Shown in pieces: positions 11,118-19,876 of a DNA stretch of 64,000 bases (within the stretch, counting starts at the first letter, position 1; each line of letters begins with the position of its first letter). The position numbers and the translations under genes are program-made. The notes beneath the pieces are model-generated. The model had not been told where the DNA came from and made no database searches. It worked only from the letters and a program-made list of their open reading frames with translations. This DNA is from Candidatus Peribacteria bacterium (lineage in GTDB: Bacteria > Patescibacteriota > Gracilibacteria > Peribacterales > Peribacteraceae), in the NCBI GenBank assembly GCA_943350395.1, contig CALRAD010000004.1, forward strand, positions 1 to 64,000. The letters are read 5' to 3'.

Positions 11118-12137
11118 TTATTGTTGCAAATACATCATCGGATTTTTTTTGACGCCATTCACGTGCACTTCGAGATGGAGGTGGATGCCCGTTGGGCCGT
11201 GCACGCGTCCGGTGTTGCCCATGAAGGAAATCGGTTGTCCTCGCGTGACGCGATCGCCCTTCTGCACGTAGATCTTTTTGTTGTGTGCGTAGAGAGTTTT
11301 CAGTCCGTTGCCATGATCGATCTCGATCACGTTGCCGTAGCCGCCGTTCCATCCGTAGTCTGCTCTGGTGACGGTGCCGGCTTCGGTAGCGAAGATTGGC
11401 GAACCTCCCCGATGTTGCATATCGACACCGAAATGCGTTCGACTGAAGTACTGCGTGTAGAAGCAATCACAAGGGATCTGGAAGATGCCGCCGCTCGGCT
11501 TGATCGCATACTCCTTGAGTTCTGGGAACGATACGGGACCGGAGCCGACCGGAGCTTTGATGGGCGGTTTCTGTGTCTGCACTGGCTTGGCAGCGACGGC
11601 GACAATCGGTTTGCCATCGGGGATGATCAGCTCTTGTCCTGCAAGCAGATAGCCTCCACGGATTTTGTTTTGTGCGGAAATGCGACCTGCATCGATGCCG
11701 TACAGATCGGCGATCATCTTGAGATTCTGGCCTCGTTTTACCGTATGCAGGATGCCATCGACCGGAAGGATCAATAACTGCTGTCCCGGCTTCACTTGAT
11801 CTTTTTCACTCAGACCGTTCACGAATCGGATCGTCTCCGGTTTCAAGAAATTTCTCTTGGCGATGCTTGCGATGCTCTCATTCGGTTCGACGGTGTGCAG
11901 AATACCCTGACTGTACGCACTCCTCGCACCCTGTTCGGTCAGTGCGGACGTCTTCATCAGGAATCCGTCTTCCGCGAGCAGAAATCCGTACGTTTCCTCC
12001 TGCAAATCTTCGGGTGCCGCGATGCTCGTTTCCGGGGAGTAGGTTGGCAGGAACAGAGACACGACGAATACACCGATGCAGAGGATGCGGATGCGGGTAG
12101 CTAGCCAGGAATGGGCTGGAGAACGAGAGAGTCGCAT
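11118..12137 (-). CDS. Exported LysM-M23 peptidoglycan endopeptidase
   Basis: 339 residues: N-terminal membrane or signal segment (17-33), then two LysM peptidoglycan-binding repeats (about 80-125, HTVEPNESIASIAKRN; about 128-173, HTVKRGQNLKMIADLYG), then an M23/LytM domain from about 215. The M23 zinc residues are visible in THFGVDMQHRGG (H-x3-D) and GIHLHLEVHVNG (HLH). It should cut peptide cross-links in the wall outside the membrane; LytM-like proteins can instead activate amidases. It lies 12 nt after dacA and 26 nt before the dockerin-like gene in the same operon, which points to a wall-remodelling job during division. Confidence 0.95.
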   Translation of the reverse strand: MRLSRSPAHSWLATRIRILCIGVFVVSLFLPTYSPETSIAAPEDLQEETYGFLLAEDGFLMKTSALTEQGARSAYSQGILHTVEPNESIASIAKRNFLKPETIRFVNGLSEKDQVKPGQQLLILPVDGILHTVKRGQNLKMIADLYGIDAGRISAQNKIRGGYLLAGQELIIPDGKPIVAVAAKPVQTQKPPIKAPVGSGPVSFPELKEYAIKPSGGIFQIPCDCFYTQYFSRTHFGVDMQHRGGSPIFATEAGTVTRADYGWNGGYGNVIEIDHGNGLKTLYAHNKKIYVQKGDRVTRGQPISFMGNTGRVHGPTGIHLHLEVHVNGVKKNPMMYLQQ

Positions 12138-12149
12138 ACGTGGCTTCTT

Positions 12150-13037
12150 TTACTGCTCCAAGGCGACATTCTCGGAGAGAGCCTTGCGCAGTGCTGTGAG
12201 GAGATAGAGGCTGTCAGTATAGCGGTCATTCGAGCCGATGAGGACCAGTAAGTATGGACGATGCTCCTCTTCAAAGAGGACGATCAGACATTCGCCTGCC
12301 AGGTCCGTGGTTCCCGTTTTCACGCCGAACACATGCGGGTTCTCATGCAGCAATTCATTGGTATTCCTGAGGTCGAACGATTGTCCGGTCGTTGCTTCGA
12401 TTGTGCCTGATTTGGTGCTCACAATTTTCCGGAACACGGGGTGCTTCAAGGCCGCGATCGTGAGCCATGAAAGGTCTCGTACGCTGGAGTATTGCTCTGT
12501 GCTATCGAGCCCCGCAGGATTGGTAAAGTGTGTGTTTTTGAGTCCCAGACTGCTTGCACGTTTGTTCATACGTTCTACGAACCGAGAGACGCTTCCGGCA
12601 TCGTCGATGGCGAGCGCATACGCCGCATCGTTTGCGGAGGGAATGAGCAGAGCCTTGAGGAGGTCGCCGATCCTGAAAAATTCTCCGGCCTTCAAACCGA
12701 CAGCGCTTCCCCTGATGCCATCCGCTAATGTTGGAACCGGTACGATTTCATTGAGGTTATGATTTTCCAAGATCAGCAATGCCGTCATGATTTTTGTGAG
12801 GCTGGCGACTTTCCGTCGTTGGTTCTCATTCCGAGACAGCAGAGTTTCTCCGCTTTGCAAGTCCAGGAGAAGCATGCCCGACGCAGAGAGGCGCTCGGGG
12901 AGAAGAAGTGGTTTTCGTTTCTCCGCGGGTGCGGCAATCGACAGCACCTCGATGCCGGGCAGCGGCCGCAGGACGGGGCCCGCTGCAGGAGGAGAGATTG
13001 CGCCGAGCAGCAGCAGTGATGCGAGAGAGGAGAACAT
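12150..13037 (-). CDS. dacA: D-alanyl-D-alanine carboxypeptidase (peptidase S11)
   Basis: 295 residues with an N-terminal hydrophobic export signal (about 4-18). It trims the terminal D-Ala from peptidoglycan pentapeptides outside the membrane. All three penicillin-binding motifs are intact: SLTK at 79-82 (nucleophile Ser79), SAN at 134-136, and KTGT at 240-243. It lacks the C-terminal amphipathic PBP5-type domain and ends soon after the KTG block, so it is a minimal form. It starts 9 nt after the ftsQ stop and is followed 12 nt later by the LysM/M23 gene. Confidence 0.94.
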   Translation of the reverse strand: MFSSLASLLLLGAISPPAAGPVLRPLPGIEVLSIAAPAEKRKPLLLPERLSASGMLLLDLQSGETLLSRNENQRRKVASLTKIMTALLILENHNLNEIVPVPTLADGIRGSAVGLKAGEFFRIGDLLKALLIPSANDAAYALAIDDAGSVSRFVERMNKRASSLGLKNTHFTNPAGLDSTEQYSSVRDLSWLTIAALKHPVFRKIVSTKSGTIEATTGQSFDLRNTNELLHENPHVFGVKTGTTDLAGECLIVLFEEEHRPYLLVLIGSNDRYTDSLYLLTALRKALSENVALEQ

Positions 13038-13046
13038 GATGTGGTC

Positions 13047-13982
13047 TTATTGGAAAATGATTTTATCTGCGATTCGTAGATCAATATAGATCTTTGCCTG
13101 ATCGAGTGAGAGTGTTTTCAGAAATTGCCTGAAACGCTGGAATTGCTCTTGGAGGGGGCTTTTCAGATCGAACCAAATCGACAGCTTGTTGGTGCGGATG
13201 TGAAATTCCTGCGCACGGACGTAGACGACGATGTCGAGAGTGGAGAGTCCGAAATCCGTGCGAAGGATGTCACGTGCCGTGAAGATGCGCTCGATGAAAT
13301 CGGGAAGAATGACGCGCGTGCGGTTTTGAGGGCGAAACCCCCAGTCCGTGAATCGGAGAATCGGTACCGGAGTCTTTCCGGAGAGCTTGATTGGAGAACT
13401 GACGAAATAGCCGCTTCTCGTGATGTACGCGTAGGACCCCGAGCCGATCATCGCTCCACTCTGCGTGTCTTGCGAGGAGTCATCGCTGTCGACGAGCACC
13501 CGTGCGACGACCGGTTCGAGCGAGAGAAAGACTGACAGGGTGGATGGATATTGCTTTTCAATTTCGATGCGATCGATGTCGGGGTACTGCGTTTCGAGGA
13601 GAGAGGCGATCTGACTTTTGGTGATGAGAATGAGGCGCTGACGGAAGAGTGGTGCGAGGATCTGTTGTACATCGGACGGATCGATGCGCGGGTCTTGTCT
13701 CTGGATCGTGATTTGTCGGACATCGAAGAAAGGAGAGAACAGGAGTGCCAGAAGAATACTCACGGCGATCGTGCCGATGCCGATTGCGATCCATGTGCGG
13801 AACTCGGATGCGACGAGAGAGGAAAGTCTCGAACACTTTTTTGCGAAGCGTACCCAGCGCTCATGCCGCCGCCGCGCTCTCCGATCGACGGTGTGGTAGC
13901 GCGCGCGAGCAATCGAACGAGAGAACAAACTTGTTTCCCTGTTCAGGAAGCGTGGCAATCTGCGGGGGGACCGTAGTGGCAT
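13047..13982 (-). CDS. ftsQ: FtsQ/DivIB-like cell division protein
   Basis: 311 residues with divisome FtsQ architecture. A basic cytoplasmic N terminus rich in Arg (about 1-60) is followed by one membrane span (about 64-83, WIAIGIGTIAVSILLALLF). Next is a POTRA-like domain (FFDVRQITIQ, then a helix-turn region DPSDVQQILAPLF and IASLLETQYPDIDRIEIEKQYPSTL). A beta-rich C-terminal domain ends with STLDIVVYVRAQEFHIRTN and a DLR motif. FtsQ links FtsA/FtsK to FtsL/B/W/I at the septum. The start is set at 13982 because the long upstream extension is antisense to the divergent glycosyltransferase and TATACT ends 7 nt before this ATG. It heads a five-gene wall operon. Confidence 0.88.
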   Translation of the reverse strand: MPLRSPRRLPRFLNRETSLFSRSIARARYHTVDRRARRRHERWVRFAKKCSRLSSLVASEFRTWIAIGIGTIAVSILLALLFSPFFDVRQITIQRQDPRIDPSDVQQILAPLFRQRLILITKSQIASLLETQYPDIDRIEIEKQYPSTLSVFLSLEPVVARVLVDSDDSSQDTQSGAMIGSGSYAYITRSGYFVSSPIKLSGKTPVPILRFTDWGFRPQNRTRVILPDFIERIFTARDILRTDFGLSTLDIVVYVRAQEFHIRTNKLSIWFDLKSPLQEQFQRFRQFLKTLSLDQAKIYIDLRIADKIIFQ

Positions 13983-14003
13983 AGTGTAAAGTATAGAGCA
14001 TCG
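13983..14003. promoter_or_regulatory. Compressed divergent promoter between ftsQ and the glycosyltransferase
   Basis: Only 21 bp separate the two start codons. TATACT read on the minus strand (13995-13990) ends 7 nt before the ftsQ ATG. TATAGA on the plus strand (13992-13997) ends 6 nt before the glycosyltransferase ATG. The two -10 elements share 4 bp, so each -35 region lies inside the other gene and both polymerases compete for one site. Confidence 0.65.
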
Positions 14004-15155
14004 ATGAAACTCGCAATTGTTGCCGACTGGCTGCCGACCTACGGAGGTGCTGAACACGTCATCTCCTCCCTCCATGACGTGTGGCCTTCTGCACCGATTT
14101 TCACAACCATTGCAAGGCACGGTGAGCTTGGACCGCTTCGCAGTGCCGATATTCGCACAGATTCTTGTCTCCAGCGTATCTTTATGCTGATGGGTCGCCA
14201 TCAGTATTTATTGCCATGGATGCCGAAATATTTTGAATCGATCGATCTTACTTCTTACGATGTTGTACTCACCTCTTCCCATGCGATTTCCAAAGGGGTC
14301 ATCCCACACAGTCGAAGCGTGCATATTTGTTACTGCCACACGCCGATGCGTTATGCGTGGGAAATGGAAGACGAATATCTTTCCGATTTTCGCATTCGCG
14401 GTCCACTCAAGTGGTTCGTAAGGCGCGAGCTTAAACGTTTGCGTCGCTACGATCTGTCAACAGCGAAGCGTGTCGATCTCTTCATTGCAAACTCGACGGA
14501 AACACAAGAACGCATCAAGCGTATCTACGGTCGCGAGAGCGTCGTCGTGCATCCTCCCGTCGGCTCACGCTTCTTCGATTTTCCCCTAACCTCCACCTTC
14601 GCCAAGGCTACGGCGGACAGGCCCGCCCCCTATTTTCTCGCCCTCGGTCGTCTTGTTCCCTACAAGCGTTTCGATTTGCTGATCGATCTTGCGAATCGCT
14701 TGAAACTTCCGCTGAAGATTGCGGGAACGGGCAGTGATCTTCCGCGTCTGAAGCGCATGGCCGGTCCGACCATCGAATTTCTTGGTCACGTCTCAGATGA
14801 AGCTCTTCCCTCGCTCTACGCACATGCAGAATGTTTGCTCTTTCCCCAAATCGAAGACGCGGGCATCGTGCCGCTTGAGGCGCAGGCATGCGGCATTCCT
14901 GTGATTGCGTTCGGCAAGGGCGGCGTGCGAGATGTCGTTGTTGATGGCGAAACCGGTTTGCTTGTTACAGAGCAGACGGTCGATGCATTTTGTGATGGCA
15001 TTGCGATATTCAAGAATAGACAGTGGGATCGGCAGAAGATTCGCGAGCATGCGAAGAAGTTTCATGTTGACGTGTTTCAGGACAGGATGAAGCGTGAGGT
15101 GGAGGGTGCGATTTGCAAATACAGAGCAGGCGTTCCCGCCTGCGGAGTACAATAA
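14004..15155 (+). CDS. Glycosyltransferase family 4 (capsule/LPS mannosyltransferase-like)
   Basis: 383-residue GT-B enzyme. The N-terminal domain starts MKLAIVADWLPTYGGAEHV, the usual glycine-rich acceptor-side motif, and contains YCHTPMRYAWE. The C-terminal donor domain shows FLALGRLVPYKRFD, then FPQIEDAGIVPLEAQACG with the E-x7-E-type signature. Close motif relatives are WbaZ/WcaI-like mannosyl or fucosyl transferases, so a surface-polysaccharide role is likely; the sugar is unknown. Residues about 195-206 (STFAKATADRPA) come from a palindromic repeat inserted at the inter-domain junction. The last residues (RAGVPACG) come from another small palindrome at 15126-15143. It is followed 4 nt later by nnrD. 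Confidence 0.93.
   Translation: MKLAIVADWLPTYGGAEHVISSLHDVWPSAPIFTTIARHGELGPLRSADIRTDSCLQRIFMLMGRHQYLLPWMPKYFESIDLTSYDVVLTSSHAISKGVIPHSRSVHICYCHTPMRYAWEMEDEYLSDFRIRGPLKWFVRRELKRLRRYDLSTAKRVDLFIANSTETQERIKRIYGRESVVVHPPVGSRFFDFPLTSTFAKATADRPAPYFLALGRLVPYKRFDLLIDLANRLKLPLKIAGTGSDLPRLKRMAGPTIEFLGHVSDEALPSLYAHAECLLFPQIEDAGIVPLEAQACGIPVIAFGKGGVRDVVVDGETGLLVTEQTVDAFCDGIAIFKNRQWDRQKIREHAKKFHVDVFQDRMKREVEGAICKYRAGVPACGVQ
14590..14621 (+). repeat. Palindromic repeat (family C) inside the glycosyltransferase gene
   Basis: The core TTCGCCAAGGCTACGGCGGA is the reverse complement, with few changes, of the element at 17010-17039 in dgt. Both copies are in frame within coding sequence and in opposite orientations. 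Confidence 0.85.
15126..15143. repeat. Small perfect inverted repeat at the end of the glycosyltransferase gene
   Basis: GCAGGCG-TTCC-CGCCTGC forms a 7-bp stem with a 4-nt loop and encodes the AGVPAC of the C-terminal tail, 10 nt before the stop codon. It could also act as a hairpin in the mRNA between the glycosyltransferase and nnrD. Confidence 0.7.
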
Positions 15156-15159
15156 TTCC

Positions 15160-15954
15160 ATGCGCTCTCCTGTTTCCCACAAAGGCGAAAACGGATCGGT
15201 TGCGATCATCGGTGGATCGACGTTTCAGCACGGTGCGCCGCTTTTTTCGGCGCTTGCAGCTGAGGCTTCGGGTGTGGATTTGGTCTTTATGTTTGTTCCT
15301 GCATGTCACAGAGAGGTCGCAAAAAATACGTCGTTGAATTTTCAAATCCATACGTTTGGCTCTGAAATGAGTGATGAAATTTCTGCGAGTGATCGATCGA
15401 GAATCATCGAAATGCTTGCAACGATGGACAGCGTTGTGATCGGTCCCGGACTTTCGCGAAGCTCCAAGAACCTCGCATCGATCATGGCACTTCTCGAAGA
15501 GTGTCCGTGTCCGCTTGTCGTCGATGCGTCGGCGTTGCAAGCGGCAACGCTTGCGGCATTGAAAGACAAACATGCAGTCGTGACTCCGCATCTTGGGGAA
15601 CTCGAGCGCATGCAGCTCACACCGGAACAAATTTCTACTGCGGCAAAAAAATTCTTCTGCACTTTTCTTCTCAAGGGTCCGGAGGACACGATTGTGAATG
15701 AAAAAGGCAGTGTGAAAAAAATCAGTGGAGGCAATGCAGGCCTCACCGTCGGCGGTACCGGAGATGCGCTTGCAGGGCTGCTGTCTGGGCTCATTGCACA
15801 AGGATATGAGCATATCGAGGCATGCAGTATTGCAAGTACGTGCATCAAGAGAGCGGGAGATATTTTATTTGCGAAGCAGGGGTATGCGTACACGACTCGT
15901 GAGGTGATCGCACAGATTCCGGAGATTCTACGGGATTTGGTTTCCCGCACATGA
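15160..15954 (+). CDS. nnrD: ADP/ATP-dependent NAD(P)H-hydrate dehydratase
   Basis: 264 residues of the ribokinase-like NnrD/YjeF-C family, which repairs hydrated NAD(P)H (NADHX) by ATP- or ADP-dependent dehydration. Diagnostic blocks: GSVAIIGGSTFQHGAPLFSA near the N terminus, VVIGPGLSRS, LVVDASALQA, VVTPHLGELERM and the signature GLTVGGTGDALAGLLSGL. The N-terminal epimerase domain (NnrE) found in bifunctional forms is absent. The ATG at 15160 is chosen because conservation starts there and TACAAT (15148-15153) ends 6 nt upstream, overlapping the stop of the preceding gene. The stop overlaps the pgeF start by 4 nt (ATGA). Confidence 0.92.
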   Translation: MRSPVSHKGENGSVAIIGGSTFQHGAPLFSALAAEASGVDLVFMFVPACHREVAKNTSLNFQIHTFGSEMSDEISASDRSRIIEMLATMDSVVIGPGLSRSSKNLASIMALLEECPCPLVVDASALQAATLAALKDKHAVVTPHLGELERMQLTPEQISTAAKKFFCTFLLKGPEDTIVNEKGSVKKISGGNAGLTVGGTGDALAGLLSGLIAQGYEHIEACSIASTCIKRAGDILFAKQGYAYTTREVIAQIPEILRDLVSRT

Positions 15955-16622
15955 TTACGCATCCTTTCAAAATTTTTGAACCGTATCGCGATGTTCTCGA
16001 TGTTCGCATGCTGACACGCAGCGACGATGTCGCATCGGATGAGGAGACGCAGCGTGCGCTCGGGACGACGAACATCGTTGTGCTTGATCAGGTGCACGGC
16101 AATCGGTGTGTCGTTGTTCGAGAGTCATCGCATCGCATCGAGAAAGCTGATGTTGTTGCAACAGATCAGACAGGTCTCACACTCACAATTCGCTTTGCGG
16201 ATTGTCAGAATTTCATCGTCTTCGATCCGAAGAAAAAAATTCTGTGTCTGATTCACGCAGGCTGGCGCGGTGTGCAATGCGAAGTTCTCGCACAAGCGTT
16301 TCTCTGCATGCAATCCGAATGGGGGGTGCATCCGCAGGACGTGTGTGTCGGTGCAGGTCCGTCACTCTGCCGCACGTGTGCCGAGTTTACGGATCCAGTG
16401 ACCGAAGCTCCAGAGCTCTCTGCGTACGCTCGAGGACGGTGCATCGATTTGAATCGTGCCGCGGATGATCAATTGTTTGCTCTCGGCGTGCTGCGCAATC
16501 ACTTCGAACGCATAGGAGATTGCACGCTCTGCAGTCCGGATTTGTACTGGACGTACAGAGCAGGAAAAGACGAAGTGGTCAAAAAAGGGAAGAGAAATTG
16601 CTTGGCGGCAACACTTCTTTGA
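15951..16622 (+). CDS. pgeF: Multicopper-type laccase-domain protein (YfiH/PgeF family)
   Basis: 223-residue YfiH-fold protein. Members have been described as peptidoglycan editing factors that remove misincorporated Ser from UDP-MurNAc precursors and as purine nucleoside-cleaving enzymes. Signature residues are present: VLDQVHGN, IRFADCQNFIVFD, IHAGWRGVQCE and VGAGPSLCRTC, giving the conserved His-Cys-His zinc site. It is translationally coupled to nnrD (ATGA overlap) and belongs to the glycosyltransferase-led run. A wall-quality role would fit the neighbouring wall genes, but this is inference. Confidence 0.92.
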   Translation: MITHPFKIFEPYRDVLDVRMLTRSDDVASDEETQRALGTTNIVVLDQVHGNRCVVVRESSHRIEKADVVATDQTGLTLTIRFADCQNFIVFDPKKKILCLIHAGWRGVQCEVLAQAFLCMQSEWGVHPQDVCVGAGPSLCRTCAEFTDPVTEAPELSAYARGRCIDLNRAADDQLFALGVLRNHFERIGDCTLCSPDLYWTYRAGKDEVVKKGKRNCLAATLL

Positions 16623-16704
16623 GCTTATCCTTCTCTGTCTCGACGACTCGTGAGTCCGCTCTACGCTTTTTTCCTACTCTTCGTTACGGGAGGCCTGAAT
16701 CTCT

Positions 16705-16750
16705 CCGCCCCGTGGGGCGGGGATGGGGTCACCCACCTAGCACTGCTAGG
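16705..16750. repeat. Twin hairpins in the pgeF-dgt intergenic region
   Basis: CCGCCCC-GT-GGGGCGG (16705-16720) and CCTAGCA-C-TGCTAGG (16736-16750) are perfect inverted repeats about 15 bp apart. There is no T-run, so this is a repeat element and not an obvious terminator. The rest of the 187-bp gap holds the dgt promoter. Confidence 0.75.
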
Positions 16751-16792
16751 GACGAGCCAAAGCGGATAACGGTCGTCTTGATTTGTTTTTTT

Positions 16793-16809
16793 GCTATACT
16801 CATCTATCA
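16793..16809 (+). promoter_or_regulatory. Extended -10 promoter of dgt
   Basis: TGC-TATACT (16792-16800) ends 9 nt before ATG 16810, with no room for a Shine-Dalgarno sequence. Confidence 0.6.
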
Positions 16810-17940
16810 ATGCAATCTCTTTCTGATCGTCTGTTTCAGGCAAACTCTCTCTTCTCCCCCTATGCCGTGCCACACGGAGGCGGACTCGGTCGTGCGTTTC
16901 CGGAGTCCGAAGACAGAACACGTTTTCCGTTTCAGCGTGACAGAGACAGGATCATTCATACGCAGGCTTTTCGGAGACTCAAGCATAAGACGCAGGTATT
17001 CGTTTCGGGCCTGCCAGCCGTAGCCTTGGCGAAGGCTGGACATGGTGATCACTACAGGACACGCATCACCCATACGCTCGAGGTTGCGCAGATCAGTCGT
17101 GATATTGCCCGTACGCTCGGGCTGAATGAGGATCTCGCCGAAGCGATCGCTCTCGCGCATGATCTTGGTCATACTCCGTTCGGTCATGCAGGAGAAGAGG
17201 CGATGAATGCATGTATGCAGTCATGCGGAAGAATGTTCGAACATAACGATCAGTCTCTTCGGATCGTCACATTGCTCGAAGATCGTTCGGCGAATTATCG
17301 AGGTTTGAATCTTTCGAAGGAGATCCTCGAAGGTCTGATGAAGCACCGGCCTTCGCCCCGCGCGGCGGGGCTTCGGTCGGCAAGTCGGGCTCTTTCCCTC
17401 GAAGCACAGCTTGTGAATCTCGCGGACGAGATCGCCTATACGGCACACGATACGGATGATGGTCTACGAGCCGGTCTCTTCACGCTCAAGCAGGTTCGCG
17501 AAACAAAACTTGGGTTCTTGGCTGCGGAAAAATCGATGGAGAGGAAGACGGAACTCCGAGGTGCGATCGTCGATCTGCTCGTTACGGATCTGTATACAGA
17601 GACGGATATGCTTCTGGAAAAACACGCAGTATCTTCCCTTGAAGATGTGTATGCGTCGCAGCATGATCTGGTTTCTTTTTCCGAAACAATGACAAAGGAT
17701 CTCTCCGAACTCCCTACATTCCTCTGGAATCATCTCTATAAAAGTGATGCCGTACAGGTGCAAGCAAAGCAAGGGCAGAGAGTGATCAGAGATTTATTTT
17801 CCGCATACCTCAAAACTCCACCCGAGAAAGTGTTGGAGTTACAGCAAAAAACAGGAGGAGCCCTCGAGGAAGCCATCAAAGACTATATCGCAGGCATGAC
17901 GGATCCGTATGCGCTGCAAATGCATACACTCATTGTCTGA
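16810..17940 (+). CDS. dgt: Deoxyguanosinetriphosphate triphosphohydrolase-like protein with two repeat-derived insertions
   Basis: 376-residue HD-domain protein of the dGTPase family, which hydrolyses dNTPs to nucleoside and triphosphate. The metal motif is H..HD..H: RITHTLEVAQ, then AHDLGHTPFGHAGEEA, plus ADEIAYTAHDTDDGLRAGL. Two departures from the family are visible. Between VFVSG and GDHYRTR, where most homologues are nearly continuous, lie about 11 extra residues (LPAVALAKAG) encoded by a palindromic repeat. At about 179-190 a second palindrome encodes PSPRAAGLRSA before SLEAQLVNLADE. Key residues are intact, so activity is probably kept. The start at 16810 is placed behind an extended -10. 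The 3' end overlaps the convergent M23 gene by 11 nt. Confidence 0.92.
   Translation: MQSLSDRLFQANSLFSPYAVPHGGGLGRAFPESEDRTRFPFQRDRDRIIHTQAFRRLKHKTQVFVSGLPAVALAKAGHGDHYRTRITHTLEVAQISRDIARTLGLNEDLAEAIALAHDLGHTPFGHAGEEAMNACMQSCGRMFEHNDQSLRIVTLLEDRSANYRGLNLSKEILEGLMKHRPSPRAAGLRSASRALSLEAQLVNLADEIAYTAHDTDDGLRAGLFTLKQVRETKLGFLAAEKSMERKTELRGAIVDLLVTDLYTETDMLLEKHAVSSLEDVYASQHDLVSFSETMTKDLSELPTFLWNHLYKSDAVQVQAKQGQRVIRDLFSAYLKTPPEKVLELQQKTGGALEEAIKDYIAGMTDPYALQMHTLIV
17010..17039 (-). repeat. Palindromic repeat (family C) inside dgt
   Basis: CCAGCC and GGCTGG termini flank GTAGCCTTGGCGAA. Reverse complement of the element at 14590-14621. Inserted in frame directly before the conserved GDHYRTR block. 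Confidence 0.85.
17346..17380. repeat. GC-rich palindrome inside dgt
   Basis: CCGGCC-TTC-GCCCCGC-GCG-GCGGGGC-TTC-GGTCGG forms a long imperfect hairpin with a perfect 7-bp GC core, translated in frame. Confidence 0.8.
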
Positions 17941-18802
17941 TCGCACGTTGAGGCAAATACTTCATCGGATCAACAAGTACGCCGTCTTTACGAACCGCGA
18001 AGTGGAGGTGAGGACCCGTGGTCATAAGACCGGCACCCATGGTGCCGGGTTGACCTCCGGTGTGACCGATGACTTCTCCTGCTCTTACCGTTGCCCCCTG
18101 CAGAACGGTCGCATCCGTCACGTGTCCATAGATTGTTTGTAGTCCTCCGTCGTGCTCCAGCACGATGGAGCTGTACCCGAGGCCGTTCATCGAAATTTTT
18201 GTGACGATGCCGCCGGCAGGAGATCTGACTTCTGTGCCCTGTTCCGTTGGAATGTCGATTGCGTGGTGAGGAAATTTGAAGAGCTTTTCATACTCCGCAT
18301 CCTCGAATGTTGCGGAAAGTCCGAGTGTAGGCGATACCGGCCACAAGAGGACACGGTCGCCGATCACGCCTTCGGTGCGATAGGCAGTGCCTTCCGCTTC
18401 CCACAATTGCTCAAGCGAGAGAAGCAGAAGCTTTTCTGACTGATCTCGTTCTTGAATGATCGAGAGAAGGATTGCTCTCGCATCGTTGAGATTCCTGATG
18501 TCTTCCGGCGACTTCGTAATGAGCGCAGCGCGCTCGAGAACACTCAGGTTATACCGGAGAATTTCCTCGCGCTTCAGAAGCACCGCTTGCGTCACTTGCT
18601 CCCGATTGATGTCGCGGCGCGCATCAGTAATGACTGTTGCCGGGTGTTCCCCTCCAAGGGCATCGCCCCGTACTTCGCTTCCCGGCCACTGAATCTTCAC
18701 GATTCCGGTCGCGTAGAGAATGACAGCGACGACAATTCCGATCGTCAGCAGAGGCCTTGGGAGGTGGATGCGTATTTCCATCGGAGAGATGGCTCCAATC
18801 AT
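17930..18802 (-). CDS. Membrane-anchored M23 peptidase
   Basis: 290 residues. One N-terminal membrane span (about 16-35) is followed by a helical stretch of about 100 residues (REEILRYNLSVLERAALI; DRDQS-type charged helices) that may be a short coiled coil, as in NlpD/EnvC-type proteins. The C-terminal M23/LytM domain (about 170-285) shows HHAIDIPTEQGTEVRSPAGG, YGHVTDATVLQGATVRAGEV and the final zinc-site GPHLHFAVRKDG. The first ligand in HHAID and the HLH are both present, so it may be catalytic. It could start at 18802 or 18781; both precede the anchor. It is convergent with dgt and overlaps it by 11 nt. Confidence 0.9.
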   Translation of the reverse strand: MIGAISPMEIRIHLPRPLLTIGIVVAVILYATGIVKIQWPGSEVRGDALGGEHPATVITDARRDINREQVTQAVLLKREEILRYNLSVLERAALITKSPEDIRNLNDARAILLSIIQERDQSEKLLLLSLEQLWEAEGTAYRTEGVIGDRVLLWPVSPTLGLSATFEDAEYEKLFKFPHHAIDIPTEQGTEVRSPAGGIVTKISMNGLGYSSIVLEHDGGLQTIYGHVTDATVLQGATVRAGEVIGHTGGQPGTMGAGLMTTGPHLHFAVRKDGVLVDPMKYLPQRAIRQ

Positions 18803-18865
18803 ACTCCTTTTCGATCTTCTACTATGTAATATTCTTATGAATAGGCAAAGAGTAGATGCGGATTT

Positions 18866-18895
18866 TTTGGCATATTTCTGCTATAATATCAAGAT
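18866..18895 (+). promoter_or_regulatory. Promoter of the first solenoid-family gene
   Basis: GGCATATTTCTGCTATAAT ends at 18887, 8 nt before the TTG start. The same block ATTTCTGCTATAAT followed by an AAGAT stretch recurs upstream of the surface genes at 42353 and 44741. Confidence 0.7.
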
Positions 18896-19876
18896 TTGGC
18901 TGCACAAAAATATCCTCAAAGGCTCAAGCGAACAGGCGCACTGATCCTTGCGCTGATCCTCGCATCAGGTACCCCCGGTGTGCTCGCGAGTTCTTGGAGT
19001 CCAACGCTGCTCGTGAATACCGAATCGTTTCAGATGATTGATCCCGGTAGCGGCAGCACGACAGTGGATATCCAGTTCGGTTCTTCTTCCAATACGCTCA
19101 AGTTACTGACAACCAGTGCTTTTCAATTCAATAAACCTCTTCGTGTCGTCGGCAATATCTCAGGTTCTTCACTCACGGTTGATGGTGTTTCTTCGCACTC
19201 GGGTGCGGCAATGTTCAAAACGACCGTTACGGCGAGGAGCACGGTCTCGGGTGCCAACCTCACATTCATGGGTGCCACAAGCTCCTACATTCTCGGATCC
19301 CTTGGAATCGGCAACGCAAGTCCGAAGGCGAAGCTGGATGTCTCCGGAACGCTTTCGGGAAAGACACTTGTCATCAGCAATAACGGTTCGTTCTCGGGTG
19401 CCCTCACGGTGCTTCGAAATCTCAATATCATGGGAACGCTTACGGGCAATATCATCCATGCTGAAAAATCACTCACAAGCTCCGGGCTATTAATGGTGTC
19501 GCAGAGAAGGCCTCAGGGATCGGGTGCACTCGTTGTCAGACAGTTGACCAACTCAACAGGTGCATACATCTTCGGTTCCGGCGCACACATCACAAGTCCG
19601 CTTTTGGCACTCGACAGTTCCACGGGATCCGTCCATGCCCCGCATATTCTCTTCGGATACAAAGGAAACTTCGATGTGGCGCTCTATCGCACGACCGGTG
19701 CGACCCTCAGAACCAATGCTACGTCCTTCACTGCGAAGAACAACTTATCCGGTGCCACGCTGAACATCGGAGGGAGCGGCATTGTTCCGAACTCCGTTCT
19801 CTGTATGAAGACCAATAGCCGTATCGGTTATTGCTCCGGGGCAGTAGGTGCGGGCGGTACGTGCACATGTAACTGA
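18896..19876 (+). CDS. Exported beta-solenoid-like surface protein
   Basis: 326 residues starting at TTG 18896, which is supported by a TGC-TATAAT promoter 8 nt upstream and by a signal peptide directly after it (RLKRTGALILALILASGTPG). The mature N terminus SSWSPTLLVNTESFQMID is shared with the protein at 20505-22139. The body repeats short strands of the type SGxxLTVxG and GNxSGSSLTVDG (Ser/Gly/Thr-rich with periodic Leu/Val), as in parallel beta-helix or tail-fibre-like adhesins. The C terminus has four Cys (VLCMKTNSRIGYCSG and GTCTCN). No enzymatic motif is seen. A surface adhesin or matrix protein is likely; family unknown. Confidence 0.75.
   Translation: MAAQKYPQRLKRTGALILALILASGTPGVLASSWSPTLLVNTESFQMIDPGSGSTTVDIQFGSSSNTLKLLTTSAFQFNKPLRVVGNISGSSLTVDGVSSHSGAAMFKTTVTARSTVSGANLTFMGATSSYILGSLGIGNASPKAKLDVSGTLSGKTLVISNNGSFSGALTVLRNLNIMGTLTGNIIHAEKSLTSSGLLMVSQRRPQGSGALVVRQLTNSTGAYIFGSGAHITSPLLALDSSTGSVHAPHILFGYKGNFDVALYRTTGATLRTNATSFTAKNNLSGATLNIGGSGIVPNSVLCMKTNSRIGYCSGAVGAGGTCTCN

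Follow-up and report, generated by a model that had tools for sequence, protein, structure and literature searches.

A 21-bp gap between divergent ftsQ and glycosyltransferase genes in a Candidatus Peribacteria bacterium: a predicted leaderless ftsQ promoter and a possible class of very short two-way promoters

The stretch of DNA analysed here (64,000 nucleotides, hereafter the window) comes from the draft genome of a Candidatus Peribacteria bacterium, which amounts to 1.25 Mb in 27 contigs. Within it, two genes point away from each other across a gap of 21 bp (13983-14003). The first, ftsQ (13047-13982, minus strand), codes for a protein with an FtsQ-type POTRA domain (Pfam POTRA_1, E = 1.2e-6) and starts with the ATG at 13982-13980. 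The second codes for a GT4-type glycosyltransferase (hereafter GT; 14004-15155, plus strand; Pfam Glycos_transf_1, E = 2e-29) and starts with the ATG at 14004-14006. Both start codons are supported, given that the FtsQ and GT proteins of the relatives align from residue 1 or within approximately three residues of it, and the distance of 21 bp that the initial annotation had reported is therefore backed by homology.

Behind ftsQ, on the same strand, lie the genes for a D-Ala-D-Ala carboxypeptidase of family S11 (12150-13037; Pfam Peptidase_S11, E = 4.1e-51) and for a LysM/M23 peptidase (11118-12137; Pfam Peptidase_M23, E = 5.5e-28, and LysM, E = 5.2e-18), which makes the name of wall operon a fair one. 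On the other side, GT is followed by the genes for a NAD(P)H-hydrate dehydratase (15160-15954, plus strand; Pfam Carb_kinase, E = 5.8e-44; NCBIfam yjeF_cterm above cut-off), a PgeF-like protein and a dGTPase. The first of these has a -10 hexamer of its own, TACAAT (15148-15153, plus strand), placed 6 nt from its ATG at 15160 and within the 3' end of the GT gene, and the series does not amount to the surface-glycan run that had been suggested. A 24-mer in GT that codes for FAKATAD (14598-14621, plus strand) is repeated with two mismatches at approximately 17010 on the minus strand, inside the dGTPase gene; only three copies with at most three mismatches are found in 664 kb.

The manner in which genes start in this genome was studied in a sample of 400 kb plus the window, and a -10 matrix was learned on the starts of 310 genes of this sample, the window being part of the training set. 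Hexamers that match TATAAT in at least five of six positions are most frequent 6 nt upstream of the ATG, where they reach 42.8 per 1000 versus 1.9 for control codons. The matrix obtained reads T, A, C/T, A, A/C, T, with the last T conserved at 98%, and its sites occur mostly at 6-9 nt. With starts chosen on coding evidence only, a -10 of at least 4 bits is present at 6-9 nt in 92 of the 310 genes and at a control offset in 9 of 310, and Shine-Dalgarno (SD)-like 5-mers are not enriched (3 of 310 genes, control 6 of 310). The excess over a shifted offset is also found in a second sample of the same genome (47 versus 8 of 150) and in the genomes G029 (64 versus 23 of 282), G002 (97 versus 15 of 304), G031 (86 versus 7 of 296) and G030 (91 versus 13 of 266). 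In 100 kb of E. coli, used as a control with the same method, leaderless-spaced -10s appear in 3 of 83 versus 3 of 83 and the SD signal is clear (20 of 83 versus 1 of 83). When the leaderless sites are aligned, a weak preference for T is seen approximately 22-23 bp ahead of the -10. The 3' end of the 16S rRNA of the window's genome (G000) is altered and reads GGAACATCTCCTTACC; for the 16S of this genome (L110, minus strand) the 3' end is also given as GGATGGAACATCTCCTTACC, in place of the usual form, GGATCACCTCCTT. In the available part of PMC10783764, Candidatus Peribacter riflensis is listed among the SD-scarce organisms without CCUCC. From these sequence patterns we infer leaderless expression for many genes of this lineage.

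On the ftsQ side of the gap, the minus-strand hexamer TATACT (13990-13995) is located 7 nt from the ATG, inside the range expected for a leaderless gene (a -10 ending approximately 6-9 nt before the start codon), and reaches 8.7 bits with the genome matrix. This minus-strand score is reached by 2.9% of the shuffles of the 21 bp. Moreover, a -10 of at least 4 bits at leaderless spacing precedes ftsQ in 34 of 39 relatives, versus a fraction of 0.111 for shuffled upstream stretches. A predicted leaderless start and promoter for ftsQ within the 21 bp is thus supported. A second strong hexamer, TACACT (8.8 bits; 13983-13988, minus strand), abuts the ftsQ ATG at 0 nt, and a start driven by it would fall within the ftsQ gene.

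For GT, the initial annotation had pointed to the plus-strand hexamer TATAGA (13992-13997), and had proposed that this hexamer and TATACT are two leaderless -10s. The geometry is as described, given that the two hexamers lie 6 and 7 nt from their respective ATGs and overlap by 4 bp in the palindromic TATA. Nonetheless, only the ftsQ half of the proposal is supported. With a score of -2.1 bits and without the final T that is conserved at 98%, TATAGA was rejected as a normal -10. The best hexamer between 4 and 13 nt from the GT ATG is TAAAGT (13987-13992, plus strand), which reaches 2.5 bits, falls at 11 nt, outside leaderless spacing, and would give a leader of approximately 4 nt. Another weak candidate, CATAGT (13980-13985, plus strand; 1.8 bits, 18 nt from the GT ATG), overlaps the ftsQ start codon. 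No plus-strand hexamer of at least 5 bits is found from 13700 to the GT ATG (13700-14003), and a standard sigma-70 scan of 13500-14500, which requires a -35 and is therefore uninformative here, returned nothing. It may be that GT has a separate weak promoter, be it TAAAGT, CATAGT or an element inside ftsQ, followed by a short leader, in which case the overlap with TATAGA would be meaningless; the presence of both hexamers, and of CATAGT also ahead of GT in two relatives (L003 and L006), fits with this, but CATAGT scores weakly there too, both hexamers are weak in the window, and the lack of any plus-strand hexamer of at least 5 bits over 13700-14003 makes such a promoter rather unlikely.

The loose pattern of at least four of six matches on both strands at 6-7 nt is met by 6.1% of the shuffles of the 21 bp, and 0.9% reach both observed scores. 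In the alignment of the genus, the positions that make up TATAGA correspond by homology to the -10 of ftsQ, together with its flank, in G002 and G001, and the window's AAAGTATAGAGC aligns with the AAATCTTAGAGC that adjoins ftsQ in G002. TATAGA is therefore likely to be a by-product of the TATA palindrome together with flanking bases shared with the sister species. Across the family, the GT side has a -10 of at least 4 bits in 23 of 39 loci (null 0.108). Given that GT would so often be leaderless in the family, it is expected to keep a proper -10, and none was found in the window, a point that speaks against the reading favoured below.

Of 35 genomes of the family, 34 have the two genes side by side and divergent, and in the remaining one each of them lies at the end of a contig; the arrangement is absent from all 18 genomes with an ftsQ match in the rest of the class. 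The gap measures 21-208 bp over the 39 loci in which both starts were assigned by alignment, a set that leaves out L073, where the GT start codon was not found, and in which the family genomes G006, G015 and G017 have no fetched or intact locus. Within the genus it is 21 bp in the window, 76 bp in G002 and 139 bp in the sister, G001, so conservation of the 21-bp gap was rejected; a longer and unconserved gap in the relatives is what the initial annotation had named as evidence against its own proposal. Both sides have a -10 of at least 4 bits in 22 of the 39 loci, with shuffled upstream stretches giving approximately 11% per side. Gaps of 27-29 bp occur in four other loci, and in two of these (L026 and L031) the strong -10s overlap by 2 bp. 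In the tree of the ftsQ|GT pair the genus is ordered as (G002,(G000,G001)), with SH-aLRT values of 100 and 97, and gap size must have switched between short and long two or more times, a count that cannot separate gain from loss; it follows that, on this tree, the window's short gap does not have a common origin with the other four. The gene order and the predicted leaderless ftsQ promoter are common across the family, and tight gaps are found in scattered members of it.

A draft assembly in 27 contigs, together with the longer gaps of both siblings, might suggest that the short gap is an assembly error. This is hardly credible, however, considering that both reading frames are intact up to their start codons, that the ftsQ -10 sits at its usual distance, and that four other members of the family have gaps of 27-29 bp at the same place.

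In G001 (L004/L062), FtsQ is 90% identical to that of the window and GT just 75%, and many repeats surround the start of GT. Inverted repeats beyond those of 95% of shuffles are present in 17 of 28 ftsQ|GT gaps of at least 60 bp (L003-L086), and in 10 of 90 divergent gaps in general, for which a slightly different criterion was used. The sequences of these repeats look unrelated between species and, because both promoters face outward, they should not be terminators of either gene.

The reading that we favour, and hold to be probable, is that the 21 bp function as the promoter from which ftsQ is transcribed without a leader, that a deletion in this species placed the GT ATG behind the ftsQ -10, and that reverse use of this element is weak. 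The ftsQ mRNA would begin at or beside the A of the ATG, given the position of TATACT 7 nt away, and its translation would initiate without a Shine-Dalgarno site, as is predicted for many genes of the lineage. In a recent ancestor, GT would have had a start region of its own at least 50 bp away, and a deletion in the window's species would have removed the stretch upstream of GT and left its ATG directly behind the ftsQ -10. A recent deletion of this kind is probable because the gaps of the siblings G001 and G002, the two genomes on which the argument is built, are longer. Since TATA is self-complementary, the polymerase could in principle open the same element in reverse, and its distance to the GT ATG would suit a leaderless start. 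Nonetheless, the reverse hexamer is poor, and expression of GT from the reversed element should therefore be weak.

The arrangement at ftsQ is not isolated. In a first sample, four divergent pairs with gaps of 19-24 bp were found, the window's pair included. In a survey of 2,264 kb, drawn as six samples from five genomes, gaps of 19-29 bp were found in 23 of 282 divergent pairs, a number that is inflated by motif-aware choice of starts, includes three gaps from the training sample of the matrix and leaves out the window's own pair, for which the survey caller picked another start. A strong -10 (at least 4 bits) is present on both strands in 12 of these 23 gaps, versus 0.016 per shuffled gap, and the other 11 fall below 4 bits on at least one strand. 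The survey counts are 2, 0, 23, 4, 11 and 11 pairs for gaps of 0-9, 10-18, 19-29, 30-39, 40-49 and 50-59 bp, respectively, with the starts chosen partly by motif, which favours the short peak, and with bins set after the data had been seen. Starts chosen on coding evidence only give a weaker short peak, with 7 pairs at 18-23 bp, 5 at 24-29, 1 at 30-35, 5 at 36-41 and 6 at 42-47. When starts are assigned by alignment, short and long gaps are cleanly separated by a valley, and the 39 ftsQ|GT loci comprise 5 gaps of 21-29 bp, none of 30-49 bp and 34 of at least 50 bp, the relatives being non-independent draws. It should be noted that the overlap of the hexamers is no evidence by itself, because it is forced at gaps of 19-24 bp with both -10s at 6-8 nt; the evidence for sharing lies in strong scores on both strands.

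Two gene pairs, traced through homology, illustrate this. The gene truB and its divergent neighbour are separated by 22 bp with a CAGTGTACACT core in all three members of the genus, where the bases between the core and the ATGs vary and where, by score, -10s are present on both strands in 3 of 3. This divergent neighbour of truB is present in 13 of the 30 loci that contain truB, and the ten outside the genus have gaps of 77-550 bp. A cca-type nucleotidyltransferase gene and an AP-endonuclease-like gene are paired in 22 of 32 loci; with alignment-based starts, six gaps of differing sequence measure 20-22 bp, none fall at 23-39 bp, and the remaining 16 are of at least 40 bp (40-575 bp). All six short gaps have at least 4 bits on both sides (shuffled 0.022). 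Another pair with a short gap is found in L101, where two asparagine-synthase-like genes (15352-17340 and 17360-19183), the left one assigned by Pfam Asn_synthase and the right one judged by eye from its sequence, stand head to head 19 bp apart with a common TACTATA. In the annotation of 100 kb of E. coli, a small control, the closest of 16 divergent protein-coding pairs are at least 92 bp apart.

On sequence grounds, membership of truB, cca and similar short gaps among the bidirectional promoters is plausible. We propose, as a tentative view that falls somewhat short of probable, that Peribacteria have a class of elements in which a palindromic -10 core of approximately 10 bp would serve two leaderless genes with ATGs 19-29 bp apart, all of the intervening DNA being promoter. 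Pairs would flip between this shared state and a separate one (at least 40 bp) with few intermediates, and ftsQ|GT would be a very young entry, created by the deletion that set GT behind the symmetric -10 of ftsQ. This short two-way class is of greater interest than the window's pair, which is a weak or nascent case. The general idea behind the initial annotation, of one short -10 serving two leaderless genes, is supported, and other pairs of the genome and family illustrate it better than ftsQ|GT.

In the available parts of the reports on bidirectional promoters, divergent starts lie 7-25 bp apart, most commonly 18 and also commonly 10 and 23, and one near-symmetric -10 is read both ways (Warman et al. 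2026, PMC12825309; Middlemiss et al. 2023, PMC10268837). The elements described here would be similar in this respect, and the predicted starts at 13982 and 14004, 22 bp apart, and those of the truB pair, 23 bp apart, are within that range. If both directions were used in the window, it would qualify as a bidirectional promoter as defined by Warman et al., to which two polymerases could not bind together. In contrast to those promoters, the two RNAs in Peribacteria would both be leaderless and the entire intergenic stretch would be promoter, as predicted from the sequence, and the second hexamer of the window is weak (plus strand, TATAGA -2.1 and TAAAGT 2.5 bits; minus strand, 8.7 bits).

The spacing of the predicted starts, and the other pairs of the genome and family that are laid out alike and have strong hexamers on each strand, would agree with the model of the initial annotation, in which both overlapping leaderless -10s are functional and their mutually exclusive use links the wall genes to GT. 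We consider this improbable, given the score of TATAGA, the gap sizes in the siblings (76 and 139 bp) and in the family (21-208 bp), and the separate -10 of the gene that follows GT. Furthermore, according to the available part of PMC12825309, none of the five bidirectional promoters tested in E. coli showed competition between polymerases at basal activity, and it arose only upon substantial activation of one direction. Two polymerases could not occupy the site together, but a regulatory coupling that would arise from exclusive binding at ordinary activity is unsupported.

Other known systems share some of these features. In Deinococcus-Thermus, the available part of Zhong et al. 2025 (PMC12340547) describes a -10 placed within a few bp of the start codon and leaderless mRNA, as is predicted here, but this is another lineage, and the words "divergent" and "bidirectional" are absent from the main text of that report. 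The SD-scarce organisms of PMC10783764 have, as this genome, lost SD use and altered their 16S 3' end; that report, in its available text, concerns the interaction between 16S and mRNA and does not treat Peribacter promoters. Among the accessible portions of the open-licence literature on leaderless genes, SD and anti-SD in the Candidate Phyla Radiation, Patescibacteria and Peregrinibacteria (including PMC12641178, PMC6851277 and PMC10783764), no paper on the promoters of this lineage was found, and none that joins leaderless genes with bidirectional promoters looked relevant. The Peribacteria elements would be a leaderless form of the bidirectional promoter already known, combined with an ORF-adjacent -10 of the Deinococcus-Thermus kind, a combination that this literature did not show for Peribacteria.

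The lesson of the window itself is modest, in that the promoter of ftsQ is clear and its sharing with GT is not. If the class is true, this SD-less lineage would come near the shortest possible divergent gene pair, in which the orientation of the polymerase alone decides the gene that is read. These pairs would then provide natural, replicated and very short systems in which to test how polymerases compete at symmetric promoters, and pairs with orthologues in both states, such as the cca pair, would allow expression noise and balance to be compared between them.
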